Shown piece after piece: positions 7,776 through 40,506 of a stretch of DNA of 64,000 nt. Both the position numbers and the translations under genes were made by a program. Position 1 is the stretch's first letter, and the number at the start of each line of letters is the position of its first letter. The DNA is from Oricola nitratireducens (GTDB lineage: Bacteria; Pseudomonadota; Alphaproteobacteria; Rhizobiales; Rhizobiaceae). The stretch spans positions 124,001 through 188,000 of the forward strand of contig NZ_JACZCS010000008.1 of the NCBI RefSeq assembly GCF_014904745.1. Reading direction: 5' to 3'. The notes under the pieces were generated by a model. It saw nothing but the letters and a program-made list of their open reading frames with translations, was not told the origin of the DNA and made no database searches.

Positions 7776-7800
7776 GCTCCAAAGGAGATTTCTGGCCGCC

Positions 7801-9039
7801 ATGAGGCTGAGCGTTCCCAATATTCGTCACCTGCGGGTGTTTCGCGAAGTCGCCCATTGCCACAGCGTCAGCATGGCGGCCGAAAGGGCAGCGCTTTCGC
7901 AACCCGCCGTCACCCAGGCGGTGGCGAAGCTGGAGGAGGAACTCGGGGTTCCGTTGTTCGAGCGGCGCCGGGACGGCATGTTCGCCACGGAGGTCGGGAC
8001 GCGGTTCCTCGGGCGCGTGGAACGGGCGCTCGATCATCTGCAGGCCGGCGCGCGCGAGGCATCGCGTCTCGGCCTGCGGCAGAAGGCGCGCGGCTTCGCC
8101 GATTTCGACCGCCTGCTGACGGCGGCGCAGCTCAGGGCACTGATCGCGGTATCGGAGGCGAAGAATTTCTCCATGGCGGCGCGCAATCTCGGCATCTCGC
8201 AACCGTCGATCCACCGGGCGGCGCGCAACCTGGAGCGGTTGTCGGGCATCAAACTGTTCGAAAGCGCGCATGACGGCATCTCGCTGACGCCGGCGGCGCA
8301 TGTCCTTGCGCAGCGCACCAAGCTGGCGTTGTCCGAACTGCAGCAGGGCTTCGACGAGGTCGACGATTTTCTCGGCCAGGATTCAACCCATATCGCCGTC
8401 GGGGCGCTGCCGCTGGTGCGCACCTTCATCCTGCCGACGGCGATCGATCTCATGGTGCGCCATTCCGAGCGCGTACAGATCCGCGCGGTCGACGGGCGCT
8501 ATGACGAATTGCTGCAGGGCGTGCGCCAGGGCGATCTCGATTTCCTGATCGGGGCATTGCGCGATCCGCCGCCTGTGGACGACATCATCCAGGAGCGGTT
8601 GTTCGACGATCCGCTGGCGCTTGTAACCGGCCGGAATCACCCGCTTGCCGGCCGGCAATCGGTGACGATCGACGATGTTCTGCGCTTTCCGTGGGTCGCG
8701 CCGCCGAAGACGACCCCGGCGGGAAGTTATTTGTATAACACGCTGAAGATCCAGGACCTGCCGGAGACGCCGGTACGCGTCGTTTCCAGTTCGCTTGTAC
8801 TCTTGCGCGGCCTGTTGATGACCGGCGACTACATCACGATCATCTCGCTGAGCCAGATCCGCCATGAACACGAGCAGGGAATCCTGGTACCGCTGCCGAT
8901 CGAACTGACGGACAGCGCCCGCGCGATCGGGCTGACCTACCGGCGCGACTGGCGTCCGACCAAGACGCAGCAGCAGTTTCTCGGCTATCTGCGGGAGGTG
9001 ACGGGGTCGATGCGGGCGGCAAACACCGCTATTGAATAA
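7801..9039 (+). CDS. LysR-family regulator with two tandem HTH domains
   Basis: Likely regulator of the lig genes on both sides. The frame is open far upstream, but the LysR fold begins at the ATG at 7801, giving 413 residues, about 100 longer than a normal LysR protein. The first winged-helix HTH covers roughly residues 5-65 (SMAAERAALSQPAVTQAVAK). A second complete one follows at roughly 105-170 (SMAARNLGISQPSIHRAARN). The periplasmic-binding-like effector domain then runs from about 195. Both helices keep the LysR pattern of A-A-x-L-x-x-S-Q-P. It is divergent to ligI and upstream of ligC. The effector is probably a pathway intermediate; this is inferred from position. Confidence 0.88.
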   Translation: MRLSVPNIRHLRVFREVAHCHSVSMAAERAALSQPAVTQAVAKLEEELGVPLFERRRDGMFATEVGTRFLGRVERALDHLQAGAREASRLGLRQKARGFADFDRLLTAAQLRALIAVSEAKNFSMAARNLGISQPSIHRAARNLERLSGIKLFESAHDGISLTPAAHVLAQRTKLALSELQQGFDEVDDFLGQDSTHIAVGALPLVRTFILPTAIDLMVRHSERVQIRAVDGRYDELLQGVRQGDLDFLIGALRDPPPVDDIIQERLFDDPLALVTGRNHPLAGRQSVTIDDVLRFPWVAPPKTTPAGSYLYNTLKIQDLPETPVRVVSSSLVLLRGLLMTGDYITIISLSQIRHEHEQGILVPLPIELTDSARAIGLTYRRDWRPTKTQQQFLGYLREVTGSMRAANTAIE

Positions 9040-10153: not shown

Positions 10154-10187
10154 GCCCGTCCGCTGGAGCTCCGGCGGGCGGGTTTTT
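10154..10187 (+). terminator. rho-independent terminator after ligC
   Basis: A long GC-rich hairpin centred on GGAGCTCC (arms 10154-10168 and 10169-10183, with a few G-T pairs) followed by T5. It separates ligC from sqr. Confidence 0.85.
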
Positions 10188-10191
10188 GCGT

Positions 10192-10205
10192 TTGATGTCG
10201 ATCAA
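10192..10205. promoter_or_regulatory. FNR/FixK box upstream of sqr
   Basis: TTGATGTCGATCAA is a perfect TTGAT-N4-ATCAA palindrome, the textbook FNR/FixK site. It lies 71 bases before the sqr start and just after the ligC terminator, so it can only serve sqr. Low-oxygen activation of sulfide oxidation is inferred. Confidence 0.6.
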
Positions 10206-10223: not shown

Positions 10224-10240
10224 TATGCCATAAGCGGTAT
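10224..10240. promoter_or_regulatory. 17-bp element shared with the soeA upstream region
   Basis: TATGCCATAAGCGGTAT is identical at 15 of 17 positions to the element at 12046-12062 before soeA. It contains an imperfect inverted repeat ATRCC-N6-GGTAT. It ends 36 bases before the sqr ATG, so it would overlap the core promoter, as a repressor operator would. Confidence 0.5.
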
Positions 10241-10276
10241 GAGAAATTAACTTTTTGACTAATTTGGAGGAGCGTC

Positions 10277-11569
10277 ATGGCGCATGTCGTCGTTCTTGGT
10301 GCCGGGCTTGGCGGCACCATCATGGCTTACGAGGTCCGCGAGGAACTCGCGAAAGAGCACAAGGTTTCCGTGGTCACGAACGGAAGCAGCTATTCCTTCG
10401 TGCCGTCCAATCCCTGGGTCGCGGTCGGCTGGCGCGACAAGGACGCGATCGAAGTCGACCTGACCTCGGTGATGAAGCGGCGTAAGATCGACCTGCATCC
10501 GCAGGGCGCCAAGAGATTGCATCCCGACGAAAAGCGGATCGAGCTCAATGACGGAACGTCGATCAATTACGACTATCTGGTGATCGCCACCGGGCCGGAA
10601 CTTGCCTTCGACGAGATCGAGGGGCTCGGACCGGAAGCGCATACGCAGTCGGTCTGCCATGTCGATCACGCGGTGCAGGCGAAGAGCGCTTTCGACAAGC
10701 TGGTGGCCAATCCCGGCCCGGTCGTCATCGGCGCCGTTCAGGGGGCGTCCTGCTACGGACCGGCCTACGAGTTCGCCTTCATCCTCGACAAGGCGCTGCG
10801 CGACGCCAAGGTGCGCGACCGCGTGCCGATGACGTTTGTCACCTCCGAACCCTATGTCGGCCATCTCGGCCTCGACGGCGTCGGCGACACGAAGGGGCTT
10901 CTCGAGAGCGAGATGCGCGACCACCACATCAAGTGGATCACCAATGCCAAGGTCGACAAGGTCGAAGAAGGCATGATGCATGTGACGGAGGTCAACGAGG
11001 ACGGTTCCGACAAGGCGAAGCACGAATTGCCGCAGGTCTTCACGATGATGCTGCCGGCCTTCCGGGGCGTCGAGGCGGTGTTCGGTCTCGAGGGACTGAC
11101 CAATCCGCGTGGCTTCATCATCGTCGACGAACACCAGAGCAACCCGAAATACCCCGAAATCTTCGCGGTCGGCGTTTGCGTCGCCATCCCGCCCGTCGGC
11201 AAGACGCCGGTTCCGGTCGGCGTGCCGAAGACCGGCTTCATGATCGAATCCATGGTGACGGCGACGGCGCACAATATCGGCCGGATGGTGCGCAACGAGA
11301 AGCCGGATGCGCGCGGCACGTGGAACGCCGTCTGTCTCGCCGATTTCGGCGACTCGGGCATCGCCTTCGTGGCGCAGCCGCAGATCCCGCCGCGCAACGT
11401 CAACTGGTCGTCGTCGGGCAAGTGGGTCCACCTCGCCAAGGTGGGCTTCGAGAAGTACTTCCTGCACAAGATCAAGTCGGGCAAATCCGAGCCCGCCTAT
11501 GAGCGTCTCGCCATGCAGGTGATGGGCATCCAGAAGCTGAAGGAAGTCAAGATCGACGCTGGAGAGTAA
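10277..11569 (+). CDS. sqr: sulfide:quinone oxidoreductase
   Basis: Membrane-associated flavoprotein that oxidises sulfide and passes electrons to quinone. The 430-residue protein resembles the Acidithiobacillus ferrooxidans enzyme from end to end as I recall it. It has the FAD-binding GAGLGG at the N terminus, SFVPSNPWVAVGW, and all three redox cysteines at Cys127, Cys159 and Cys353, matching Cys128, Cys160 and Cys356. Retention of all three separates it from the many SQR-like proteins of unknown function. The C-terminal KVGFEKYFLHKIKSG is the amphipathic membrane-binding part. GGAGGAG precedes the ATG. A FixK-type box and the 17-bp soe-like element lie upstream. Confidence 0.92.
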   Translation: MAHVVVLGAGLGGTIMAYEVREELAKEHKVSVVTNGSSYSFVPSNPWVAVGWRDKDAIEVDLTSVMKRRKIDLHPQGAKRLHPDEKRIELNDGTSINYDYLVIATGPELAFDEIEGLGPEAHTQSVCHVDHAVQAKSAFDKLVANPGPVVIGAVQGASCYGPAYEFAFILDKALRDAKVRDRVPMTFVTSEPYVGHLGLDGVGDTKGLLESEMRDHHIKWITNAKVDKVEEGMMHVTEVNEDGSDKAKHELPQVFTMMLPAFRGVEAVFGLEGLTNPRGFIIVDEHQSNPKYPEIFAVGVCVAIPPVGKTPVPVGVPKTGFMIESMVTATAHNIGRMVRNEKPDARGTWNAVCLADFGDSGIAFVAQPQIPPRNVNWSSSGKWVHLAKVGFEKYFLHKIKSGKSEPAYERLAMQVMGIQKLKEVKIDAGE

Positions 11570-11640
11570 CGCCGCGAGGGGCTCTTGAACCGGGCGCAAT
11601 GCGGTACGATATATGCAAAAAAACATATGGAAACGGACTA

Positions 11641-11841
11641 ATGTCTCTCGATAAAATGGTACTCGCATTCGCCGGCGTCATGACGCTGCTCTCTGTCGTG
11701 CTCACTGTCTACGTGTCGCCGTACTTCCTGTGGTTCACCGTGTTCATCGGGCTGAACCTGCTGCAGTCGGCGTTCACCGGGTTCTGCCCCGCGGCGATGA
11801 TCTTCAAGAAGCTCGGCGCCAAGGCCGGCAACGCGTTTTAA
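11641..11841 (+). CDS. small DUF2892 (YgaP transmembrane-type) protein
   Basis: A 66-residue protein with two hydrophobic helices (about residues 5-25 and 30-48) and the conserved block FTGFCPAAMIFKKLG. This is the membrane hairpin found at the C terminus of YgaP-type rhodaneses, here standing alone. The ATG at 11641 fits the family. An upstream in-frame ATG at 11599 would add 14 poorly conserved residues. It lies 71 bases after sqr and before a terminator. The conserved cysteine and the neighbour suggest a role in sulfane-sulfur handling at the membrane; no activity is established for stand-alone forms. Confidence 0.8.
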   Translation: MSLDKMVLAFAGVMTLLSVVLTVYVSPYFLWFTVFIGLNLLQSAFTGFCPAAMIFKKLGAKAGNAF

Positions 11842-11886
11842 GCGAAACAAAGAAGGGAAGGCACGCTTTCCCTCCTGACATGAACC

Positions 11887-11922
11887 GGACACGCCGTGGA
11901 AACGCGGCGTGTCCTTTATTTT
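11887..11922 (+). terminator. rho-independent terminator after sqr-DUF2892
   Basis: Perfect 10-bp stem GGACACGCCG / CGGCGTGTCC with an 8-base loop, followed by a T-rich tail. It ends the sqr transcript 45 bases after the DUF2892 stop. Confidence 0.85.
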
Positions 11923-12045
11923 GCGAGGCCGCGCGCCTCCCGCACCCTCCATCCAGCCGATTATTCCGACGTAACAGCGCCCGAGCCGGCCGGAATTTTC
12001 GGAAAACATACGGGGGCGAAATTGACCTATCGTGCGTTTTCGACG

Positions 12046-12062
12046 TATGCCATATTCGGTAT
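12046..12062. promoter_or_regulatory. 17-bp element upstream of soeA shared with sqr
   Basis: TATGCCATATTCGGTAT differs from the element before sqr only at the two central bases. It lies 68 bases before the soeA start. The right half extends to TTCGGTATATT, which recurs at 19340-19350 before lipS1. It is a candidate operator for a shared sulfur-responsive regulator. Confidence 0.5.
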
Positions 12063-12130
12063 ATTAATTTCGTGACCGCAAACCGGAGGGGGCGGCGGTC
12101 GCGGAGTGCCAGGGAGGCTTGCCGAACCGC

Positions 12131-14974
12131 ATGAACGCGCAACCTGATCTCGATCTCTCGCCGCTTGTGTCCGACGAGATCCGCCAGACGACCTGCTACA
12201 TGTGCGCATGCCGCTGCGGTATCAATGTGCATCTGAGAAACGGGCCGGACGGGCGCAGGATCGTCAGCTACATCGAGGGCAACCGCGATCACCCGACCAA
12301 CCGGGGCGTTCTGTGCGCCAAGGGATCCTCGGGGATCATGCAGCATTATTCGCCGGCCCGCCTGCGCAAGCCGCTGAAGCGCAAGGGCCCGCGTGGATCC
12401 GGCGAGTTCGAGGAGATCTCCTGGGACGAGGCGCTGACGCTCGCCACGGACTGGCTCAAGCCGATCCGCGAGACCGACCCAAAAAAACTCGCCTTCTTCA
12501 CCGGCCGCGACCAGTCGCAATCCTTTACCTCGTGGTGGGCTCAGGCCTTCGGCACCCCCAACTATGCCGCCCATGGCGGCTTCTGCTCGGTCAACATGGC
12601 GGCCGGCGGCATCTACACGATGGGCGGGGCGTTCTGGGAGTTCGGCACCGCCGACTGGGACCGCACGAAGATGTTCATGATCTTCGGCGTCGCCGAGGAT
12701 CACGATTCCAATCCGATCAAGATCGGATTGTCGAAGCTCAAGAATAACGGCGCCAAGATCGTCGGGGTCAATCCGGTGCGTACCGGCTACAACGCCATCG
12801 CCGACGAGTGGGTGGGCATTACGCCCGGTACCGACGGGCTGTTCATTCTCGCCCTGATCCACGAATTGCTGCGCAACGGCAGCGTCGATGTCTCCTATCT
12901 GGTGCGCTACACCAACGCTCCGTGGCTGGTGATCGAGGATCCCGGCGCGCCGGACCACGGTCTTTTCGCGCGTGACAAGGACGGCAATCCGCTGGTCATC
13001 GACCGGCGCACCGGCAAGCCCGCCTCGGCGGAAGACAATGACGCCAAACCCGACCTCAAGGGCGAGGCGACGCTTTCCGACGGACGCAAGGCGCGGCCCG
13101 CCTTCGAGATCATGGCCGAGAAATATCTCGACGGATCCTATGCGCCGGCGGCGGTCGCCGAGCAGTGCGGGATCGCCCCCGGAACCATCGAGCGGCTGGC
13201 CGGCGAACTGGCGCATGCCGCTTTCGAGGAAGAGATCGTTCTCGACCGGCCCTGGACCGACTGGCGCGGCCGCAAGCACGACAAGATGATCGGCCGTCCG
13301 GTCAGCTTCCACGCCATGCGCGGCATCTCGGCCCATTCCAACGGTTTCCAGACCGCGCGCGCGCTGCACCTGTTGCAGATCCTGCTCGGTTCGGTGGAAA
13401 CGCCCGGCGGCTTCCGCTTCAAGCCGCCCTATCCCAAGCCGGTCGAGGGACACCCCAAGCCGCATACCGGCTACAAGCCGAACACCCCGCTCGACGGACC
13501 GCATCTCGGCTATCCGCTGAGCCCGGACGATCTGCAGATCAACGAGGACGGCAGCCCGCGGCGGATCGACAAGGCGTTTTCCTGGGAAGCGCCGATGTCG
13601 GCGCACGGGCTGATGCATATGGTCATCGCCAACGCGGCGGAGAAGGACCCCTACGGCATCGACGTCCTGTTCCTCTACATGGCCAACATGGCCTGGAACT
13701 CGTCGATGAACACGGCCGGCACGATGGAGATGCTGACCCGTACCGACGAGAACGGCGACTATGTGATCCCCAAGATCATCTATTCGGACGCCTATTCGTC
13801 GGAGATGGTGGCCTTCGCCGACCTGATCCTGCCGGACACGACCTATCTCGAACGCCACGATTGCATCTCGCTGCTCGACCGGCCGATCTCCGAGCCCGAC
13901 GCGGCCGCCGATGCCATCCGCTGGCCGGTGGTCGAGCCCGATCGCGACGTGCGCGGCTTCCAGACCGCCCTGCTCGATCTCGGCGCGCGGCTCGGCCTGC
14001 CGGGCTTCGTCGAGGAAGACGGCATGCCGCGTTACAAGGACTATGCCGACTACATCGTCCGGCACGAAAGGCGGCCCGGTGTCGGCCCGCTGGCCGGCTG
14101 GCGCGGCAATGGCGAGGAGGCGGGGCGCGGCGCGCCCAATCCGGACCAGCTCAACAAATATATCGAGAACGGCGGCTTCTTTACCGCCCACATTCCCGAG
14201 GAAGCCCAGTTCTTCAAGCCCTGGAACAAGGCCTATCAGGACTGGGCGGTGTCGGTGGGCCTGTACGACAAGCCTCAACCCTACGTGTTCAGCGTCTATT
14301 CGGAACCGCTGCGCAAATTCCAGCTTGCCGCCGAGGGGCATGGCGACAGGCAACCGCCCGACAATATGCGCGACCGTATCAGCCGGGCCTTCGACCCGCT
14401 TCCGGCCTGGTATCCGCCCTACGAGGGCGAACTGATCGACACGAGCGAGTTCCCCTATCACGCGCTGACCCAGCGGCCGGCCGCGATGTATCATTCCTGG
14501 GGATCGCAGAACGCCTGGCTGCGGCAGATCCACGGCGAGAACCCGCTCTACGTTCCGGAGAAGATCGCGAACGAGGTCGGTCTGAAGAATGGCGACTGGG
14601 CCTGGGTGACCTCGCATCACGGGCGCATCCGCGTGCCGGTGCATGTCACCGCCGCCTCCAACGAGAAGACCTTGTGGACATGGAACGCCATCGGCAAGCG
14701 CAAGGGCGCCTGGGCGCTCGGCGAGGGCGCGCCGGAAACGGAGCGCGGCTTCCTGCTCAACCATCTGATCCACGAATTGCTGCCGCCGAAGGGCGATGGC
14801 ATGCGCTGGACGAACTCCGACCCGGTGACCGGCCAGGCCGCATGGTTCGACCTGCGGGTGCGCATCGAAAAGGCGGCCGACGGCGAGGAAAGCCTCTCGC
14901 CGGATACCGGATCGCAGAAATCGCCGGTCGGGACCGGCCCTGCCACCGTGGCGTTCGGAAAGGCCTGGAAATGA
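12131..14974 (+). CDS. soeA: sulfite dehydrogenase SoeA, molybdopterin catalytic subunit
   Basis: Catalytic subunit of the cytoplasm-facing SoeABC complex, which oxidises sulfite to sulfate and feeds the quinone pool. From the ATG at 12131 it is 947 residues, usual for SoeA. The N-terminal [4Fe-4S] motif is CYMCACRCGINVH with a fourth Cys in RGVLCAKG. The molybdo-bis(MGD) oxidoreductase domains and the C-terminal dinucleotide-binding domain (HALTQRPAAMYHSW, TLWTWNAIGK) follow. There is no twin-arginine signal, consistent with a cytoplasmic enzyme. An in-frame TTG at 12119 is possible, but GGGAGG would then be only one or two bases away. It overlaps soeB by 4 bases. Polysulfide or DMSO reductases are related; the Fe-S and anchor partners and sqr favour SoeA. 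Confidence 0.85.
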   Translation: MNAQPDLDLSPLVSDEIRQTTCYMCACRCGINVHLRNGPDGRRIVSYIEGNRDHPTNRGVLCAKGSSGIMQHYSPARLRKPLKRKGPRGSGEFEEISWDEALTLATDWLKPIRETDPKKLAFFTGRDQSQSFTSWWAQAFGTPNYAAHGGFCSVNMAAGGIYTMGGAFWEFGTADWDRTKMFMIFGVAEDHDSNPIKIGLSKLKNNGAKIVGVNPVRTGYNAIADEWVGITPGTDGLFILALIHELLRNGSVDVSYLVRYTNAPWLVIEDPGAPDHGLFARDKDGNPLVIDRRTGKPASAEDNDAKPDLKGEATLSDGRKARPAFEIMAEKYLDGSYAPAAVAEQCGIAPGTIERLAGELAHAAFEEEIVLDRPWTDWRGRKHDKMIGRPVSFHAMRGISAHSNGFQTARALHLLQILLGSVETPGGFRFKPPYPKPVEGHPKPHTGYKPNTPLDGPHLGYPLSPDDLQINEDGSPRRIDKAFSWEAPMSAHGLMHMVIANAAEKDPYGIDVLFLYMANMAWNSSMNTAGTMEMLTRTDENGDYVIPKIIYSDAYSSEMVAFADLILPDTTYLERHDCISLLDRPISEPDAAADAIRWPVVEPDRDVRGFQTALLDLGARLGLPGFVEEDGMPRYKDYADYIVRHERRPGVGPLAGWRGNGEEAGRGAPNPDQLNKYIENGGFFTAHIPEEAQFFKPWNKAYQDWAVSVGLYDKPQPYVFSVYSEPLRKFQLAAEGHGDRQPPDNMRDRISRAFDPLPAWYPPYEGELIDTSEFPYHALTQRPAAMYHSWGSQNAWLRQIHGENPLYVPEKIANEVGLKNGDWAWVTSHHGRIRVPVHVTAASNEKTLWTWNAIGKRKGAWALGEGAPETERGFLLNHLIHELLPPKGDGMRWTNSDPVTGQAAWFDLRVRIEKAADGEESLSPDTGSQKSPVGTGPATVAFGKAWK

Positions 14975-15720
14975 CGACGCTGCCCCAATCGACAGCCAAG
15001 AAACTCGGTCTTGTCATCGATCTCGACATCTGCGTCGGCTGCCATGCCTGCGCGGTCGCGTGCAAGGAGTGGAACACCGGCGCCTATGGCGCGCCGCTGT
15101 CGGACCAGGACGCCTATGGCGCCGAGCCGTCCGGAACCTGGCTCAACCGTGTCCACTCTTACGAGGTCAAACCGAAGGAAGGCCCGGCGCAGATCATCCA
15201 TTTTCCGCGCTCCTGCCTGCATTGCGAGGACGCGCCCTGCGTGACCGTGTGCCCCACCGGCGCAAGCTACAAGCGCGCCGAGGACGGCATCGTGCTGGTC
15301 AACGAGGACCGCTGCATGGGCTGCGGCTTGTGCGCCTGGGCCTGCCCCTACGGTGCGCGCGAAATGGACATGGACGCGGGCGTGATGAAGAAGTGCACGC
15401 TGTGTGTCGACCGCATCTACAACGACAACATTCCGGAGGAGGACCGGGTGCCTTCCTGTGTACGCACTTGCCCCGCCAATGCGCGCCATTTCGGCGATTT
15501 CGCCGATCCGGACAGCGCGGTTTCGCGGATGACTGCCGAGCGCGGCGGTTTCGACCTGATGCCGGACCAGAAGACGCGCCCGGTCAACAAATACCTTCCG
15601 CCGCGCCCCAAGACCGACGCCACGCAAACGGCCGGCGGCTGCGGCAAACCAGCAACAGCGACGCCGCAGCCGGGTGGATTGCTCGGCTGGCTCGATCGCG
15701 CATTGGCGGTGATTGACTGA
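14971..15720 (+). CDS. soeB: sulfite dehydrogenase SoeB, iron-sulfur subunit
   Basis: Electron-transfer subunit of 249 residues carrying four [4Fe-4S] clusters, shown by four cysteine groups: CVGCHACAVACK, CLHCEDAPCVTVCP, CMGCGLCAWACP and CTLCVDR with CVRTCP. This is the DmsB/NrfC pattern. It lacks a signal peptide, in line with a cytoplasmic location. ATGA overlaps with the soeA stop and the TGATG junction with soeC show tight translational coupling. The C-terminal ~40 residues are Pro/Ala/Gly-rich with one extra CG pair and appear disordered. Confidence 0.87.
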   Translation: MTTLPQSTAKKLGLVIDLDICVGCHACAVACKEWNTGAYGAPLSDQDAYGAEPSGTWLNRVHSYEVKPKEGPAQIIHFPRSCLHCEDAPCVTVCPTGASYKRAEDGIVLVNEDRCMGCGLCAWACPYGAREMDMDAGVMKKCTLCVDRIYNDNIPEEDRVPSCVRTCPANARHFGDFADPDSAVSRMTAERGGFDLMPDQKTRPVNKYLPPRPKTDATQTAGGCGKPATATPQPGGLLGWLDRALAVID

Positions 15721-16646
15721 TGCATCCAGCTCTCTCCGTCATCGTTTTCACCACACTTTCCGGCATCGGCTTCGGCCTGATGACGCTGCTCGGCATCGGC
15801 CTCGGCGCGCATGACCTGGCCTTCCGCTGGACAGCGGTCGTGCTGGCATTCGCGTTCACTGTCATCGGGTTGTTGTCGTCGGTGCTGCATCTGAAAAGCC
15901 CGTCACGGGCGATATTCTCCTTCTCGCAGTGGCGATCGTCCTGGTTGTCGCGCGAAGGCGTGCTGTCGGTCCTGACGCTCGGCGTCTTCGGGCTTTATTC
16001 GCTGGCATTCCTGTTCATGGACATGCGCGTTGCCGGGCTCGGCATCGCCGCCGCCGTGCTGGCGCTGGTGACCGTCTATTCGACCTCGATGATCTATGCG
16101 CAATTGCGCACGGTTCCGCACTGGGCGACATGGCTGACATCGGCGGCCTTCCTGTGTTTCGCCGCTGCTGGTTCCCTGTTGTTGCTGGCGGCACTGCTCG
16201 CGGTCTTCGGCGCGGCGGGCGCACGTCAAACCGCTCAATACGCTCTTGTCGCCCTCGTCGTGGCATGGGCGGTCAAGGCGCTCTGGTGGCGGCGCGCGGC
16301 GCGGACCACGCTCGATAGCGCCGGCTCGGGGATCGGCCAGGCGACCGGTCTCGACCGGATCGGCACGGTGCGGCCGTTCGAATTGCCGCATACGTCGCCC
16401 AACTATCTGATGCGCGAAATGGCGTTCCAGGTCGGGCGCAACCGGGCGCGGGCGTTGAGGCGGGTGGCTGTCCTCGCGGGCGCGCTTCTTCCCGCCCTGC
16501 TGGTGCTTCTCGCGCTGGTGACCGGGCCGCTGGCAGCGCTGCTGGTGATTGCCGTTCTCGTTCACCTCGGCGGTATGCTGGCGGAGCGCTGGCTGTTCTT
16601 CGCGGAAGCGCGGCACGCGGTCTCGTCCTTTTACGGCGTCCAGTAG
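15720..16646 (+). CDS. soeC: sulfite dehydrogenase SoeC, membrane anchor
   Basis: DmsC-type quinone-reducing membrane anchor of 308 residues with about eight hydrophobic helices. The ATG shares a base with the soeB stop. The stretch after helix 6 (SPNYLMREMAFQVGRNRAR) is the cytoplasmic loop typical of the DmsC family. It delivers electrons from SoeB to quinone. It ends 78 bases before the M81 gene. Confidence 0.85.
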   Translation: MHPALSVIVFTTLSGIGFGLMTLLGIGLGAHDLAFRWTAVVLAFAFTVIGLLSSVLHLKSPSRAIFSFSQWRSSWLSREGVLSVLTLGVFGLYSLAFLFMDMRVAGLGIAAAVLALVTVYSTSMIYAQLRTVPHWATWLTSAAFLCFAAAGSLLLLAALLAVFGAAGARQTAQYALVALVVAWAVKALWWRRAARTTLDSAGSGIGQATGLDRIGTVRPFELPHTSPNYLMREMAFQVGRNRARALRRVAVLAGALLPALLVLLALVTGPLAALLVIAVLVHLGGMLAERWLFFAEARHAVSSFYGVQ

Positions 16647-19339: not shown

Positions 19340-19350
19340 TTCGGTATATT
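19340..19350. promoter_or_regulatory. soe-like half-site upstream of lipS1
   Basis: TTCGGTATATT is identical to the right half of the soeA element (12055-12065). A weaker inverted version, CGGAATATGAC, follows at 19411-19421 just before the lipS1 ribosome binding site. Both lie in the 104-base gap before lipS1. This may link the lipoate genes to the sqr/soe regulator; statistical support is modest. Confidence 0.35.
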
Positions 19351-19436
19351 GTGCCGGGCCGATATAAAGCGTGTTGCGGCCATTGGGGAATGGACGTTAT
19401 ATTACTTTTTCGGAATATGACGTGGGAGGCGTTGTG

Positions 19437-20480
19437 ATGAGCGGTTGGCTTGACCGTATCCAGACGATCGAAGACCTGGAGGATGCCGAATTCGACGCCG
19501 GCCTCGTCGCCGAAATGGAGCGCGCCGTCGCGGAACGCGCGCCGGGTCCGATCCGGTTTTCGACCCCGACCTTCAAGGAATACGACAATTCCGAGATCAA
19601 GGGCTGCGGCAAGAACTCGTTTCCCGCCTTCTCGATCACTGCCGGCGCCTGCGCGCTCGACTGCGACCATTGCCAGGCGAAGATCCTCGAGCCGATGATC
19701 CCGGCGACCAAGCCGGACATGCTCGACCGCAAGGTGCGCGCCCTGATCCAGTTGCAGGACCTGCAGGGTTTCCTGCTGTCGGGCGGCTCCAACCGCAAGA
19801 ACGAGATCAACTACGAACGCTTCTATCCCGTCATCGAGGGGCTGAAGCGCGATTTTCCGCATCTGAAGGTTGCGATCCACACCGCACTGACCGACGAGGT
19901 CGGCGCGAAGCGCATGGAATCGGCCGGTGTCGACACGGCGATGATGGACGTCATCGGCGCGCAGGAGACGATCGAGCAGGTTTACCACCTCGACCGGCCG
20001 GTGGAGGATTTCGAAAAGACGCTGGCCGCATTGTCCGCGACGAACATGGAGATCTCGCCGCATATCGTGGTCGGGCTGCATTACGGCGAGATTCTCGGCG
20101 AAGCGAACGCGCTCGACATGGTCGCGCGGCACAATGTCAACGCGCTGGTGCTGGTCGTCATCATGCCGTTTTACGCCAAGCCCGGCACCTTCAAGACGCC
20201 GAGTACCGGCGATGTCGGCCGCATCTTCCTGGAAGCGCGCCAGCGTCTCGCCGACAAGCAGGTGCTGCTCGGCTGCGCGCGGCCTCCGGGCATGCACAAG
20301 CGCGTCACCGACGCCTATGCGGTCATGGCCGGCCTCGACGGCATCGCCTTTCCGGCGGAAGGCGCGGTCGCGGTTTCGCGGGCGATCGGTCGCGAATTCA
20401 ACCAGGAGCACGCTTGCTGCTCGATCAAGATCGGCGCCAAGATTGGCGGGAGCCGCGCCGTCTCTCCGTGCGCGGCGTGA
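19437..20480 (+). CDS. lipS1: lipoate synthase subunit LipS1, radical SAM
   Basis: Radical SAM enzyme that, with LipS2, inserts the two sulfur atoms into a protein-bound octanoyl chain in the LipS1/LipS2 pathway known from sulfur oxidisers. It has 347 residues from the ATG, with GGGAGG 8 bases upstream. The SAM cluster motif is CALDCDHC near residue 73. Further cysteines are GCGKN before it and a C-terminal cluster (ACCSIKIGAKIGGSRAV). It opens a four-gene lipoate-assembly operon; lipT follows after 7 bases. The assignment rests strongly on this gene order. Confidence 0.85.
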   Translation: MSGWLDRIQTIEDLEDAEFDAGLVAEMERAVAERAPGPIRFSTPTFKEYDNSEIKGCGKNSFPAFSITAGACALDCDHCQAKILEPMIPATKPDMLDRKVRALIQLQDLQGFLLSGGSNRKNEINYERFYPVIEGLKRDFPHLKVAIHTALTDEVGAKRMESAGVDTAMMDVIGAQETIEQVYHLDRPVEDFEKTLAALSATNMEISPHIVVGLHYGEILGEANALDMVARHNVNALVLVVIMPFYAKPGTFKTPSTGDVGRIFLEARQRLADKQVLLGCARPPGMHKRVTDAYAVMAGLDGIAFPAEGAVAVSRAIGREFNQEHACCSIKIGAKIGGSRAVSPCAA

Positions 20481-20487
20481 GGCGCGC

Positions 20488-21627
20488 ATGACCAGTGACG
20501 CAGGTTTCGATGTCGATGTGCTTGTCGTCGGGCTCGGCCCGGCGGGCGCATCGGCGGCCGCCGCAGCGGCGGAGAAGGGCCTGAGCGTCCTCGCCATCGA
20601 ACGCAATGCCGAACCCGGCCTGCCTGTGCAATGCGCGGAATTCGTGCCGATGATGATCGGCATGCAGCTTCCCGAGATGGGCGACAGCCGCGTCCAGGCG
20701 ATCAGTGAAATGCAGACCTTCATCGGCGGCGAAGAGGCCGTCGTGACGCCGGATTTCCGCGGCTACATGGTCGATCGCGCCCGTTTCGACCAATATCTGA
20801 TCGCACAGGCACAAAAGGCCGGTGCGCAATGCCGCTTCGCCACGTCGTTGCGCGGCCTCGATGCCAACGGAATGGCGACGATCGGCGACGGCGAGACGGT
20901 CAAGGCGAAGCTCGTCATCGGCGCCGATGGCCCGCGCTCGCGCGTCGGCGAGGCGATCGGCGCGGTGAACACGGAGCTGGTCGAAACGCGGCAGATCACG
21001 CTCGACCTCACCGATCCGCACGCCGCGACGGACATTTTCCTCAATGCCGAGATCGTCGGCGGCTATGCCTGGCTGTTCCCGCGCGGAGATGTCTGCAATC
21101 TCGGCCTCGGGGTTACGGCTGAACACAAGGCGCGGCTGAAGCCGTTGCTCGATGCGCTGCATGCGCAACTGGTCGCCGAAGGCCGCGTCGGCGAGACGAT
21201 TATTCGCCATACGGGCGGGTTGATTCCCGTCGGCGGTCTTGTCGGGCCGGCGGGCATGCTCGGCGAAACGGCAGTTCTTCTGGCAGGCGATGCGGCGGGG
21301 CTGACCAATCCGGTCACCGGCGCGGGCATCCCCTCTGCCGTCATGTCCGGTAAAAGCGCCGGGGTGGCCGCCGCCGGTTTCGTTGCCGGCGATGCGGACG
21401 CGCCCGGCGACTACGCCGAGGAACTGGACGACATTTTCGGGCCGTCGCTGGCGCTGGCGCTCAGCCGCCGCCGCGAGATCCTCGACACCTACCGGCAGGG
21501 CGGCCTGCCGGACAAGGGCGACATGCGCAAGTCATGGATCGCCTTCCCGCAATACTGGAAGAAGGACGCGGCGGGCATACCCCTGTCGCAGACCGGACAA
21601 ACCCTGGAGGCCACGCAAGCGATATGA
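20488..21627 (+). CDS. lipT: LipT-type FAD-dependent oxidoreductase (geranylgeranyl-reductase-like)
   Basis: FAD-binding oxidoreductase of 379 residues from the geranylgeranyl reductase/PHBH superfamily. The N-terminal dinucleotide-binding motif is VVGLGPAGASAAAAAAEKG. The second FAD motif is VIGADGPRS near 150, and the third is VLLAGDAAGLTNPVTGAGI near 270. Between two radical SAM lipoate synthase genes, this type of protein is known as LipT and probably supplies electrons or redox control for LipS1/S2. It overlaps lipS2 by the ATGA motif. An archaeal-type lipid reductase is the alternative but lacks context. Confidence 0.8.
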   Translation: MTSDAGFDVDVLVVGLGPAGASAAAAAAEKGLSVLAIERNAEPGLPVQCAEFVPMMIGMQLPEMGDSRVQAISEMQTFIGGEEAVVTPDFRGYMVDRARFDQYLIAQAQKAGAQCRFATSLRGLDANGMATIGDGETVKAKLVIGADGPRSRVGEAIGAVNTELVETRQITLDLTDPHAATDIFLNAEIVGGYAWLFPRGDVCNLGLGVTAEHKARLKPLLDALHAQLVAEGRVGETIIRHTGGLIPVGGLVGPAGMLGETAVLLAGDAAGLTNPVTGAGIPSAVMSGKSAGVAAAGFVAGDADAPGDYAEELDDIFGPSLALALSRRREILDTYRQGGLPDKGDMRKSWIAFPQYWKKDAAGIPLSQTGQTLEATQAI

Positions 21628-22913
21628 CCTGTCTTAAGCCGGAAAACGCGATGCCGGGCGCCAAGGGTGCCGGCGGCTCGGATTTCAATCCTTTTGCGCT
21701 GATGGAGCCGCGCGCGCCGGGCCGCGTGCCCGTCGAGATGAAGAACGGCAAACCGGTGAAGGAAGCCAACCTGACGCCGGAAGGGCTCTATCGCCCCGAT
21801 TACCGGGTGATGACGCCGCATATGCGCTCGCCCGAGTATGTGCAGATGTCGACCGCCGCCGCGATCACGCTGGGGCTGGTCGAGGGCCAGATGCACCGCT
21901 GCGCCTGCACGCGCTGCCTGAACCTGCTCTTGACCTATCCGGAAGGCTGCCGCGCCAACTGCGCCTATTGCGGCTTGGCCCGTCATCGCGAGGCCGAACG
22001 CAATTATGCCGACCGCAACTTCATCCGGGTCGACTGGCCGGCGGTGTCGATGGACGAGATCGTCGATCGCGTCGCCGCCGATGTCGAGGGCTCGCCCTTC
22101 CACCGCATGTGCATCTCGATGATCACCCATCCGAATTCGGACGAGGACACGGTGACGGTGCTGAAGAAATGGGTCGACCGGATCGACCCCGACGCGATTC
22201 CGATCTCGATCCTGTCGAACCCGACGACGATGACGCGCAACGACGTCCAGACGCTGCGCGACATGGGCTCGGACATCTTCACGGTGGCGCTCGACGCCGC
22301 CACACCGGAACTGTTCGACCGGACCCGTGGCAAGGGTGTGCAGTCGCCGCATACCTGGAAGAAATACTGGGAAATCATGCTCGAGGCGCGCGACATTTTC
22401 GGGCCGAAGAAGTTCGGCGCGCATATCATCGTCGGCATGGGCGAGACCGAGCACGACGTGATGAAGGTGGTGCAGGAACTGGTCGATCTCGGCGGCCACA
22501 GCCACATGTTCTGCTTCTTCCCGGAGAAGGGGTCGCTGATGGATCACCTGCCGGCGACGCCGCGCGACCAGTGGCGCCGCGTCCAACTGGCACGTTACCT
22601 CGTCGATTATTGCGGTGTGCGCATCGAGCACATGACATTCGACGAGGAAGGCCGGATCGCCGATTTCGGCCTGCCGAAGTCGGAACTCGACGGAATCGTC
22701 GATGCCGGTATCGCGTTCCGTACCTCGGGCTGCCCGGGCAAGTTCGCCGACGACATCTCGGCCTGCGACCGGCCCTATGGCGACAGCCCGCCGAGCAATA
22801 TCGCGAGCTATCCGTTCCCGCTTGAGGACGTCGACATCCGCAAGGTGCGGAGCCAGTTGCAGATGGACCGGCCGGGCGAAAGCTACGAGCCGGGCGAAGA
22901 GTTCGACGACTGA
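21624..22913 (+). CDS. lipS2: lipoate synthase subunit LipS2, radical SAM
   Basis: Second radical SAM enzyme of the LipS1/LipS2 sulfur-insertion pair, 429 residues. The SAM cluster motif is CRANCAYC near residue 113. A preceding CACTRC near 93 probably binds an auxiliary cluster that donates sulfur, as in classic LipA. A C-terminal Cys pair occurs in RTSGCPGKFADDISACDRP. It follows lipT with a 4-base overlap and precedes sLpl by 36 bases. Confidence 0.85.
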   Translation: MTCLKPENAMPGAKGAGGSDFNPFALMEPRAPGRVPVEMKNGKPVKEANLTPEGLYRPDYRVMTPHMRSPEYVQMSTAAAITLGLVEGQMHRCACTRCLNLLLTYPEGCRANCAYCGLARHREAERNYADRNFIRVDWPAVSMDEIVDRVAADVEGSPFHRMCISMITHPNSDEDTVTVLKKWVDRIDPDAIPISILSNPTTMTRNDVQTLRDMGSDIFTVALDAATPELFDRTRGKGVQSPHTWKKYWEIMLEARDIFGPKKFGAHIIVGMGETEHDVMKVVQELVDLGGHSHMFCFFPEKGSLMDHLPATPRDQWRRVQLARYLVDYCGVRIEHMTFDEEGRIADFGLPKSELDGIVDAGIAFRTSGCPGKFADDISACDRPYGDSPPSNIASYPFPLEDVDIRKVRSQLQMDRPGESYEPGEEFDD

Positions 22914-22949
22914 CACGCGGACGCTGCGCCGCGGCCGAGGGAGGACAGC

Positions 22950-24032
22950 ATGACCAAGACATTCCGGGTGATCGACACCGGCGTGCGCCATTGCCGCGCG
23001 CAGATCGCGTTCGACCAGGCGCTGATCGAGACACACAAGGCGGGCCAGATCCCCGACACGGTACGGTTCCTGCAATTCCCGCCCTCGGTGCTGGTCGGCC
23101 GGCACCAGGCGATCTCGCACGAACTCAATCTCAATGCCTGCCGGGCGGCCGGCGTCGGCATCGGCCGGCGGATCACCGGAGGCGGCGCGCTCTATCTCGA
23201 CGAGGGCCAGTTCGGCTGGGAGCTGATCTTCCACAAGAACACGCTCGGTATCACCAGCCTCGGCGACCTGGCGCGCGAAATCTGCGAGGCGGCCGCCGCG
23301 GGCCTGTCGAAGCTCGGCGTCGACGTCCGCTACCGGCCGCGCAACGACCTCGAGGTCGACGGACGCAAGATCGGCGGCACCGGAGGGTTCTTCGACGGCG
23401 ACACGATCTTCTACCAGGGCACGACGCTGGTGGAGATGGATGGCGCCAAGATGGCCTCGCTGCTCAACATCCCGGCCGCCAAGCTGGCCAAGCGCGGCCA
23501 GTCGAGCGGCGCGCAGCGCGTCGTCACGCTGAAGGAACTGTTCGACGGGGCTCCGCCGCCGGTCGGCGAGGTGCAGCAGGCGATGCTGGAGGGGTTTGCG
23601 GAGAAACTCGGCATTTCGCCCGAATGGGGCGCGATCACGCCGGCCGAGGAAGCGGCGGCGCGGTCGCTCTTCGACAGCGAGATCGGCCAGGACGAGTTCG
23701 TCTACGAGATCGACGACCAGAAGAATTCGCCGGGCGTGCTGACCGGCAGCCATACCGGGCAGGGCGGCACGATCACCGCCTATCTGCGCCTCGAAGGCGC
23801 GAACCAGGACCGCATCCGCGAGGTGCTGATCACCGGCGATTTCTTCGTCACGCCGCCGAAGACGATCTACAATCTGGAGGCTGCGCTGCGTGGTGTCGCC
23901 GTGGCCGACGTGGCGCAGGCGACAGAGGATTTTTTCACAAACGCCAATGTCGGGTTGCTGACGGCGGCGCCGGCGGATTTCGCCGAGGCCGTCCTCAATG
24001 CGGCTTCGACGGGTGAACTCGTGCCCGCCTGA
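22950..24032 (+). CDS. lipoate-protein ligase, sLpl(AB)-type
   Basis: Attaches lipoate or octanoate to the target lysine of a carrier domain through an acyl-AMP. It has 360 residues and contains both the catalytic domain and a C-terminal accessory domain. The lipoate-binding motif is RRITGGGALYLDEGQ near residue 75 and the catalytic lysine is in GRKIGGTGGFFDGD near 140. GGGAGG precedes the ATG. Together with lipS1, lipT and lipS2 it makes a complete alternative lipoate assembly set. In sulfur oxidisers with sHdr the target is the lipoate-binding protein LbpA. No lbpA or shdr gene is in the window. Confidence 0.85.
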   Translation: MTKTFRVIDTGVRHCRAQIAFDQALIETHKAGQIPDTVRFLQFPPSVLVGRHQAISHELNLNACRAAGVGIGRRITGGGALYLDEGQFGWELIFHKNTLGITSLGDLAREICEAAAAGLSKLGVDVRYRPRNDLEVDGRKIGGTGGFFDGDTIFYQGTTLVEMDGAKMASLLNIPAAKLAKRGQSSGAQRVVTLKELFDGAPPPVGEVQQAMLEGFAEKLGISPEWGAITPAEEAAARSLFDSEIGQDEFVYEIDDQKNSPGVLTGSHTGQGGTITAYLRLEGANQDRIREVLITGDFFVTPPKTIYNLEAALRGVAVADVAQATEDFFTNANVGLLTAAPADFAEAVLNAASTGELVPA

Positions 24033-38798: not shown

Positions 38799-40409
38799 TT
38801 ACTCCGCTGGCATGGTGACCGGGACGTTGCCGTCATGGGTCCGCAGGCGATGTTCGTGGCGCGCCATCCAGGCCTTCGTCTCCGCGACGTCCATATACGG
38901 GCCCTTGCGGATGTATTTGACCATCAGCCCCATCTCGATGATGAACAGAATGGTATAGAAGGCGACGAAGCCGGCGAGCGTGATCACCAGGTCGCCGATG
39001 CCCAGATGCGAGACCGACAAGGCGGTCGGCAGGACGCCGTCGACCGTCCATGGCTGGCGCCCGAATTCGGAGACGAACCAGCCGAGTTCGGCGGCAATCC
39101 ATGGCGTCGGGATAATCGCGACCCCGAAATAGAGCGCCCAGCGCGGGAATTGCATCTTCCTGAAAGATGCGAGGTAGAAGAAATAGGCCATCACCGCGAT
39201 GAAGGAGAAGCCGAGCGCCACCATGAAACGGAAGGCCCAGAATAGCGGCCATACGGTCGGAACAGTGTCATTGGCGGCCTGCAATATCTGATCTTCGGTG
39301 GCCGTGCGCGGATCCTCGACATAGCGCTTCAAAAGCAACGCATATCCGAGATCGGCGCTGTGTTCCTCGAACCTGCCACGGACATCAGGGGCGACCTCGC
39401 CGCGATCGGCGCGGATGGTCATCAGCGCGTCATAGGCGATCAGGCCGGAGCGGATGCGTTCCTCAGACCGTTTGACGAGCTCCTCGATGCCGGGAATGAC
39501 CGTGTCGAGCGAGCGCGTTCCGATCAGGCCCATGGCCCATGGAATCTTGATGGCGTAGTTGGTTTCGCGCGCTTCCTGATCCGGTATGCCGAACAGGGTG
39601 AACGGAGCTGGCGCCGGTTCGGTCTCCCACATCGCCTCGATGGCCGCGAGCTTCATCTTCTGGTTCAGCGAGGTGTCATAACCGGACTCGTCACCCAGGA
39701 CGACGACAGACAGAGCCGAGGCCAGGCCGAAGCTTGCCGCCACCGCGATGGAGCGGCGGGCCAGTTCGCAATGGCGTCCCTTGAGCATGTACCAAGCCGA
39801 GACGCCGAGAACGAAGACCGCGGCCGTCACATAGCCGGCGGAAACGGTGTGGACGAACTTGGCCTGCGCGACCTCGTTGAACAGCACGTCGTAGAATGAG
39901 GTCATCTCCATGCGCATGGTCATCGGATTGAACTTGGCGCCGACCGGATTCTGCATCCAGCCATTGGCGATCAGGATCCAGAGCGCGGAGAAATTCGAAC
40001 CGATGGCGACAAGCCATGCGACGATTAGGTGCTGGACTTTCGACAGCTTGTCCCAGCCGAAGAAGAACAGGCCGACGAAGGTCGCCTCGAGGAAGAAGGC
40101 CATCAGCCCCTCGATCGCGAGCGGTGCGCCGAAAATGTCGCCGACATAGTGGCTGTAGTAGCTCCAGTTCATGCCGAACTGGAATTCCATCGTGATCCCG
40201 GTGGCAACGCCGAGAACGAAGTTGATACCGAACAGCGTGCCCCAGAACTTGGTCATCTGCCGCCAGATCGGACGGTTCGTCATCACATAGACCGTTTCCA
40301 TGATCGCGACGATCACCGACAGCCCGAGCGTGAGCGGGACAAAAAGGAAATGATACATCGCCGTCATCGCGAATTGCAGGCGAGACAGCTCAACGACACC
40401 GAACTCCAT
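38799..40409 (-). CDS. cydA: cytochrome bd ubiquinol oxidase subunit I
   Basis: Catalytic subunit of the high-affinity quinol oxidase, 536 residues from the ATG at 40409. It carries haems b558, b595 and d. SRLQFAMTAMYHFLFVPLTL at the N terminus contains the haem-ligand histidine of the family. The segment with GTRSLDTVIPGIEELVKRSE shows the long Q-loop, E. coli-like form. An in-frame extension upstream is not conserved. An FNR/FixK box lies 83 bases upstream, so cydABX has its own oxygen-controlled promoter, although cydDC lies upstream on the same strand. Confidence 0.95.
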   Translation of the reverse strand: MEFGVVELSRLQFAMTAMYHFLFVPLTLGLSVIVAIMETVYVMTNRPIWRQMTKFWGTLFGINFVLGVATGITMEFQFGMNWSYYSHYVGDIFGAPLAIEGLMAFFLEATFVGLFFFGWDKLSKVQHLIVAWLVAIGSNFSALWILIANGWMQNPVGAKFNPMTMRMEMTSFYDVLFNEVAQAKFVHTVSAGYVTAAVFVLGVSAWYMLKGRHCELARRSIAVAASFGLASALSVVVLGDESGYDTSLNQKMKLAAIEAMWETEPAPAPFTLFGIPDQEARETNYAIKIPWAMGLIGTRSLDTVIPGIEELVKRSEERIRSGLIAYDALMTIRADRGEVAPDVRGRFEEHSADLGYALLLKRYVEDPRTATEDQILQAANDTVPTVWPLFWAFRFMVALGFSFIAVMAYFFYLASFRKMQFPRWALYFGVAIIPTPWIAAELGWFVSEFGRQPWTVDGVLPTALSVSHLGIGDLVITLAGFVAFYTILFIIEMGLMVKYIRKGPYMDVAETKAWMARHEHRLRTHDGNVPVTMPAE

Positions 40410-40492
40410 TGCGGGTTCCTTTCTCGTTTGCGGACATGCATCCGGCTGCATGTCGCGGGGTGAGTGTTCGCATGCCCCGGCCACGGCCGGCA

Positions 40493-40506
40493 TTGATACA
40501 AATCAA
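40493..40506. promoter_or_regulatory. FNR/FixK box upstream of cydABX
   Basis: TTGATACAAATCAA is a perfect TTGAT-N4-ATCAA palindrome in the 119-base gap between cydC and cydA. The position suits activation of cydABX at low oxygen, as known for cyd operons in other proteobacteria. Confidence 0.75.

Follow-up and report, generated by a model that had tools for sequence, protein, structure and literature searches.

Inverted repeats upstream of sqr and soeABC in Oricola nitratireducens as candidate variant operators of SqrR-type repressors

We analyzed a 64,000-nucleotide stretch of the Oricola nitratireducens genome (the window; positions 124,001 to 188,000 of contig NZ_JACZCS010000008.1) in which near-identical short elements precede two sets of sulfur oxidation genes. 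The first is sqr, encoding a sulfide:quinone oxidoreductase-like flavoprotein and followed by a gene for a YgaP-like transmembrane protein; the second is soeABC, encoding a predicted sulfite-oxidizing complex. The two sets look like separate units because terminator-like hairpins precede each promoter region, and the elements at 10224 and 12046 each lie downstream of such a hairpin (Table 1). The sqr unit and soeABC are adjacent in the window; in the congeneric genomes G002 and G004 they are separated by an operon that looks ATP synthase-like from its translations (L251 5992-12571; L250 7349-13898). Farther downstream are lipS1 and other putative lipoate assembly genes. The names lipT and lipS2 are presumed from gene order and domains, and the family matches of LipS1 and the lipoate ligase fall below NCBIfam cut-offs.

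Table 1. Features of the sqr, soeABC and lipS1 region and candidate repressor genes. Positions are those of the window unless contig C47 of the same genome is named.
Feature	Position	Strand	Details
Terminator-like hairpin before sqr	10154..10183	+	13 pairs, 10 G-C, T tail
FNR/FixK-type box upstream of sqr	10192..10205	+	TTGATGTCGATCAA; exact match to TTGAT-N4-ATCAA
Proposed sqr operator	10224..10241	+	TATGCC-ATAAGC-GGTATG; 4/6 arm pairs
sqr, sulfide:quinone oxidoreductase-like flavoprotein	10277..11569	+	Name from the initial annotation; Pfam Pyr_redox_2
YgaP-like transmembrane protein gene, downstream of sqr	11641..11841	+	PF11127
Terminator-like hairpin between sqr unit and soe	11887..11914	+	12 pairs, 9 G-C, T tail
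Proposed soeABC operator	12046..12063	+	TATGCC-ATATTC-GGTATA; 5/6 arm pairs
soeA-like molybdopterin oxidoreductase gene	12131..14974	+	Name from the initial annotation
soeB-like iron-sulfur subunit gene	14971..15720	+	Start inferred from reading frame; matches in four congeners
soeC-like membrane subunit gene	15720..16646	+	Matches in four congeners
Half-site of the initial annotation before lipS1	19340..19350	+	TTCGGTATATT; holds -10 hexamer TATATT (19345-19350) of predicted promoter TTGGCG-N18-TATATT
Proposed lipS1 operator	19400..19417	+	TATTAC-TTTTTC-GGAATA (ATTA-N8-GAAT); top-ranked by relatives-only matrix
lipS1, lipT-like flavoprotein, lipS2-like radical SAM protein and lipoate-protein ligase genes	19437..24032	+	
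ArsR repressor gene near soxA	C47:3394-3753		Two SqrR-type cysteines
BigR-like ArsR repressor gene near metallo-beta-lactamase-fold and SulP genes	C47:17428-17745		Two SqrR-type cysteines
sHdrR-like ArsR repressor gene downstream of dsrE-shdr genes	C47:105206-105571		Two SqrR-type cysteines

An initial annotation of the window, made from the sequence alone, had reported a 17-bp near-identical element before sqr and soeABC, and this proved accurate: TATGCCATAAGCGGTAT (10224-10240) and TATGCCATATTCGGTAT (12046-12062), both on the plus strand, differ only in two central bases, AG versus TT. The genome scan that it had proposed returned few copies, with two exact matches to the motif TATGCCATANNCGGTAT in 4,933,581 bases (66 contigs), none with one mismatch and six with two, the context of the last being read by script and by eye. 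Allowing up to three mismatches gave 67 matches in all versus 36 for the reversed control, and five in the window versus 0.31 expected. The sqr/soe pair was the sole pair with at least 15/17 identity among 27 window intergenic regions (at least 40 bases each, 3,859 bases in total, with gene limits set partly by eye). Shuffling of the sqr and soe intergenic regions reached that identity in 11 of 1500 trials; taken alone, the pair is only moderately unlikely by chance. None of 35 records in a plasmid search covered 80% of the query.

Comparison with congeners revealed the form of the element. In G004, whose SoeA is 83% identical, TATGCCATATCTGGCATA lies 82 bases upstream of the soeA match, aligned in position with the window element, and constitutes a perfect inverted repeat, TATGCC-ATATCT-GGCATA (TATGCC-N6-GGCATA, 6/6 arm pairs). 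The soe promoters of G004 and the window are alignable, and their longest invariant run, ACGTATGCCATAT, spans 13 bases. Upstream of sqr in G002 (Sqr 86% identical), TATGCCATTTTTCGCATA reads TATGCC-ATTTTT-CGCATA, a TATGCC-N6-CGCATA dyad with 5/6 arm pairs, 52 bases before the start versus 53 in the window. Distances in relatives are counted from the first matched residue and may be off by a few codons. Because the right arms GGTATG (sqr) and GGTATA (soe) depart from the repeats of these congeners, the 17-mers are best read as one arm-degenerate dyad rather than a 17-bp word. The shared element is rare in the genome, and its dyad is kept at orthologous promoters of two congeners, one promoter in each. 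This conservation is a stronger argument for the element than the shuffle statistics, and the element is very probably regulatory.

The spacing of the dyad resembles that of a known operator. ATTC-N8-GAAT has been deduced as the site of SqrR (PMC9774250; this and the other papers cited are drawn on in excerpt). The window sqr and soe sites are ATGC-N8-GTAT, and the G004 soe site is ATGC-N8-GCAT; an inverted repeat with eight bases between four-base cores, as in the SqrR site, is found in the window, G002 and G004. The outer TAT...ATA of relatives' sites is also as in the window sites. The initial annotation had not recognized the element as an operator of the ArsR type. In architecture that view is probably wrong, though strict membership is lacking: TAT-N-C-N8-G-N-AT is arranged like the SqrR site, with one base changed per half-site.

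Consensus-like sites were counted in 51 promoters of sqr, soeA, lipS1 and shdr from 17 genomes including that of O. nitratireducens, all with a LipS1 relative (found in 7 of 151 genomes in one search and 16 of 397 in another, own included; 16 others in all). The counts leave out soeA of G221 and G337 and lipS1 of G383 and G410, where 5' ends are cut, and shdr of G058, where the script found no gene start. ATTC-N8-GAAT with at most one mismatch occurred in 20 of the 51 promoters; the remaining spacer lengths between 3 and 15 gave counts of 3 to 11, and shuffled sequences 6.6 +/- 2.3. Exact sites occurred in 8, versus 0.46 in shuffles. By gene, own genome included, sites within one mismatch were found in 9 of 15 lipS1 (2.2 in shuffles), 5 of 11 sqr (1.3) and 4 of 10 shdr promoters (1.4). 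We also examined 80 further sqr loci, the best 80 of at least 585, which are mutually related and several of which extend less than 10 kb per side. The site was present in 29 of these versus 9.6 in shuffles, and in 25 of the 45 loci whose fetched sequence includes an ArsR relative versus 4 of the 35 without (Fisher p = 4.9e-5, a value that overstates independence because the loci are akin and the rows are not independent evidence). The sqr relative of genome G186 (L171) is reported to contain one in-frame TGA.

At lipS1, the initial annotation had noted a recurrence of a half-site of the element at 19340. The sequence is present there: when both strands of the window were compared, TTCGGTATATT had exact copies at 12055 and 19340 only, and it was not found in three other 20-kb stretches of the genome, one overlapping the window. 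As an operator half-site it was not supported, because the 11-mer contains the predicted -10 box, which explains the match. The lipS1 operator is instead likely at 19400-19417, where ATTACTTTTTCGGAAT, at -36, has one mismatch to ATTC-N8-GAAT; among 14 relatives, seven have a site within one mismatch between -25 and -36 of lipS1. This placement agrees with binding of sHdrR upstream of lipS1 in Hyphomicrobium denitrificans, where sHdrR also binds upstream of dsrE3C and its loss renders lipS1 and shdrA constitutive (PMC12423496). The own shdr site has two mismatches. In two relatives (L162 and L164), the shdr promoter in front of the dsrE-like gene reads TTTAGAA-N2-TTCTAA, possibly an iron-responsive (Irr-type) box.

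Half-sites of the TATGC kind were also found at other genes. TATDC-N8-GHATA occurred at 17 places in the genome versus 6 for the reversed control. Fifteen were read for context by script and by eye (two had no locus): three were at sulfur-related genes, namely soe, the bigR leader and a TauE-family gene; one preceded an Lrp/AsnC-type gene; about half, by the script's rough judgement, were inside reading frames; and others were inside or close to genes with no obvious sulfur function. TATGC-TGTTTTGT-GAATA, with one mismatch to the consensus, lies 31 bases before a TauE/SafE-family frame (PF01925; L191 1501-1518 = G000:C44:17547-17564), and TauE-family sulfite exporters are named among the neighbors and likely targets of such regulators (PMC12423496). 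The bigR leader contains two repeats in tandem, and in five of six genomes of the genus the second of these has a TATGC arm (TATGC-N8-GAATA in four, TATGC-N8-TAATA in the fifth); an in-frame stop in the G004 leader argues against coding. Such half-sites beside an ArsR gene and before a TauE-family gene support an ArsR-type reading of the element.

Candidate repressors were sought with the ArsR domain HTH_5, which matched 16 times in the genome and not at all in the window (C20:124001-188000). Among 40 window proteins compared with Pfam, the DNA-binding regulators were a LysR-type protein, a TetR-type protein and a sigma-54 response regulator; none was ArsR. Three ArsR proteins elsewhere in the genome have the SqrR cysteine pair, the cysteines aligning with those of solved SqrR or HlyU chains, and all are encoded on contig C47 (Table 1). 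All three score below the cut-off of NCBIfam's BigR equivalog; the BigR-like one is nearest to HlyU chains. The proteins beside sox and shdr keep most of one helix, which we take to be the recognition helix. Six genomes of the genus have three ArsR matches each, full-length in five; the third of G001 is a weak partial match (E 6.3e-14) and was left out of the leader and tree comparison. In a quick tree, 17 other ArsR matches grouped by type. The single regulator of sulfide oxidation, sulfite oxidation and lipoate assembly suggested at first was not borne out, the genome encoding three paralogous candidates. The window LysR-type protein (7792-9036), which has two separate HTH_1 stretches and adjoins LigAB-type aromatic dioxygenase genes, was not adopted as the regulator.

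We consider it moderately probable that a SqrR-type ArsR protein reads the element and that the sqr and soe sites are variant operators of SqrR-like architecture. We term them variants rather than strict members because each has two mismatches to the consensus, one per half-site. This departure from ATTC-N8-GAAT is the first of several points that weigh against an ArsR repressor. When two mismatches are allowed, matches are frequent whatever the spacer length (42 to 66 in the 51 promoters), and ATTC-N9-GAAT is also raised, in 20 of the 80 sqr promoters (L021-L100) beside 29 with the N8 form. As a class, soeA promoters are unenriched (2 of 15 versus 1.5 in shuffles); both of their sites are exact, one being that of G058, of the same family. 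No repressor gene adjoins sqr or soe. The element was found in G004 only among 30 soeA promoters read in the family (29 plus G001; soeA matches in 153 of 394 genomes), being absent from those of G001, G002 and G005, and G002 is the closest relative (90% SoeA identity). The G004 sqr promoter also lacks it, as do, in the 260 bases read, the closest sqr relatives (77-83% identity, several of them Mesorhizobium); many of these relatives have a divergent ArsR gene. Finally, TATTC-N8-GCATA ends two bases before the start codon of an Lrp/AsnC-type regulator gene (L194 1501-1518 = G000:C47:114299-114316), about 9 kb from the sHdrR-like gene.

Weight matrices built from 19 relatives' sites only, from the 80 sqr loci or from both pooled were scored over 63,979 window positions, and part of the outcome adds to these objections. 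The lipS1 site ranked 1, 2 and 1, respectively. The soe site ranked 3 with the 19-relative matrix, just behind an overlapping register, then 37 and 11; the sqr site ranked only 42, 154 and 66. Within its 20 kb, the own dsrE-shdr promoter site ranked first, fifth and second. From these ranks, the case for membership in the canonical network is good for lipS1, fair for shdr, moderate for soe and weak for sqr, where support for the site comes from congener G002. Among the top operator-matrix matches was the palindrome-like TATATGCAAAAAAACATATGGA (11610-11631), just before the YgaP-like gene; congeners have a different, A+T-rich promoter there.

The foremost alternative, which we regard as unlikely, is that the elements are true operators of a non-ArsR regulator (e.g., CsoR/CstR-like, Lrp/AsnC, LysR, MarR or TetR) that recognizes TATGCC-N6-GGCATA and controls sqr and soe. 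In its favor, the departure of TATGCC from TATTC falls at one and the same position in each arm of both promoters, and both sites score low with the canonical motif. The mixed-kind site before the Lrp/AsnC-type gene would fit autoregulation, so another regulator may stay in play, but that gene has no known tie to sulfur genes, and the TATGC half-sites of bigR leaders adjoin an ArsR gene. A CsoR/CstR-type site was rejected on site form alone: sites of this family mostly have a run of at least four G/C, with a 4-bp spacer for TTHA1953 (PMC10318464), and neither is present in the centers ATAAGC, ATATTC, ATATCT and ATTTTT. A LysR-type site is argued against by absence of the element from the soe regions of G002 and G005, where a LysR-type gene (Pfam) is divergent from soeA (L250 6076-6963; L252 13749-14645). 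The presence of a LysR gene where the TATGCC element is missing suggests that the mode of soe control has switched within the genus.

That two A+T-rich promoter segments resemble each other by chance, without sharing a regulator, is improbable. Chance would fit the moderate shuffle result in a 64-kb scan that makes many comparisons, the -10 box explanation of the 11-mer shared with lipS1, and the lack of the element in most relatives' soeA promoters. It accounts poorly for a pair that is unique among the window intergenic regions and has no further copy within one mismatch in 4.93 Mb, for the invariant 13-bp block and perfect dyad in G004, and for a G002 sqr promoter that keeps the left arm and dyad with its distance to the start one base off. 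An extended -10 region common to sulfur genes through one sigma factor is very improbable: GGTATATT in soe and lipS1 does hold the -10-like TATATT, but the scan places no promoter of the sigma-70 type at either the sqr or the soe element, the sqr copy runs on as TATGAG, and inverted symmetry with TATGCC as the most conserved part is unexpected for a -10 region.

Returning to a SqrR-type ArsR repressor as the reader of the element, we infer from sequence a model in which the 17-mers belong to inverted repeats of 18 bp, whose half-site is TATGCC and whose 6-bp center is mostly A+T, that would act like operators of sulfane-sulfur-responsive ArsR repressors (SqrR, BigR, SoxR and sHdrR). A repressor dimer would occupy the promoter while sulfane sulfur is scarce; formation of a sulfur bridge between its two conserved cysteines would release it and turn on the sqr-YgaP-like gene unit and soeABC. 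The lipS1, dsrE-shdr and bigR promoters would be controlled through sites nearer ATTC-N8-GAAT, and the TauE-type exporter gene through the mixed site ATGC-N8-GAAT. Sulfide, sulfane-sulfur and sulfite handling would then be joined in a single network under three paralogous repressors whose genes lie elsewhere in the genome. More tentatively, one ArsR paralogue may have shifted its DNA reading from TATTC to TATGC, setting sulfide entry (sqr) and sulfite exit (soe, and perhaps the TauE-type exporter gene) as a sub-regulon apart from the sulfane-sulfur core of shdr, lip and sox and insulating the paralogues.

The box upstream of sqr, which we take to be of the FNR/FixK type with consensus TTGAT-N4-ATCAA, probably adds an oxygen signal through an FNR-type activator. 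Absent from the initial annotation, it is an ordinary feature of sqr: the box is exact in G004, has one mismatch in G002, and is found within one mismatch in 33 of the 80 relatives' sqr promoters versus 0.76 in shuffles. A second TTGAT-N4-ATCAA box (40493-40506) is at the upstream end of a cytochrome bd oxidase subunit I frame (38799-40493, minus strand) that adjoins subunit II and two ABC transporter genes.

The proposed operators share features with several known systems. BigR operons comprise bigR and genes for a YgaP-like transmembrane protein, a beta-lactamase-like hydrolase and a transporter; the BigR-like gene on C47 is likewise near a metallo-beta-lactamase-fold gene, a SulP gene and a gene for a small membrane protein read as YgaP-like, but the own sqr is on another contig. 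Like the SqrR operator of Rhodobacter capsulatus, the element is a dyad with N8 between four-base cores in front of sqr; unlike it, G or A replaces T as the third core base (ATGC-N8-GTAT; G004 ATGC-N8-GCAT), and the repressor gene is not adjacent. Sequence similar to the SqrR operator is also described at Escherichia coli ygaV (PMC9774250). As in the sHdrR/SoxR regulon of H. denitrificans (PMC12423496, PMC10451225), two-cysteine ArsR repressors are encoded beside sox and shdr, lipS1 and dsrE-shdr are predicted targets, and the genome has more than one paralogue; sqr and soeABC, with their variant site, would be additions here. Compared by site form alone, CsoR-family CstR and TTHA1953 (PMC10318464) share thiol-based control of sulfur genes and TAC/GTA-type arms, and differ in their G/C run or N4 spacer.

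Where a genome encodes several SqrR-type repressors, it is of interest how the paralogues divide their targets; the excerpted H. denitrificans work (PMC12423496) left open competition or interaction between SoxR and sHdrR at their sites. With more canonical operators at lipS1 and shdr, a variant one at sqr and soe would offer a simple test of this division. If our reading is correct, sulfite oxidation by SoeABC would be under sulfane-sulfur control, of which we found no report in the titles and abstract openings of the few open-licence papers retrieved; H. denitrificans itself is said to have no efficient enzymes for sulfite oxidation (PMC12423496). On the more tentative reading above, a single base change in each half-site (TATTC to TATGC) would insulate paralogous repressors from each other within one pathway.

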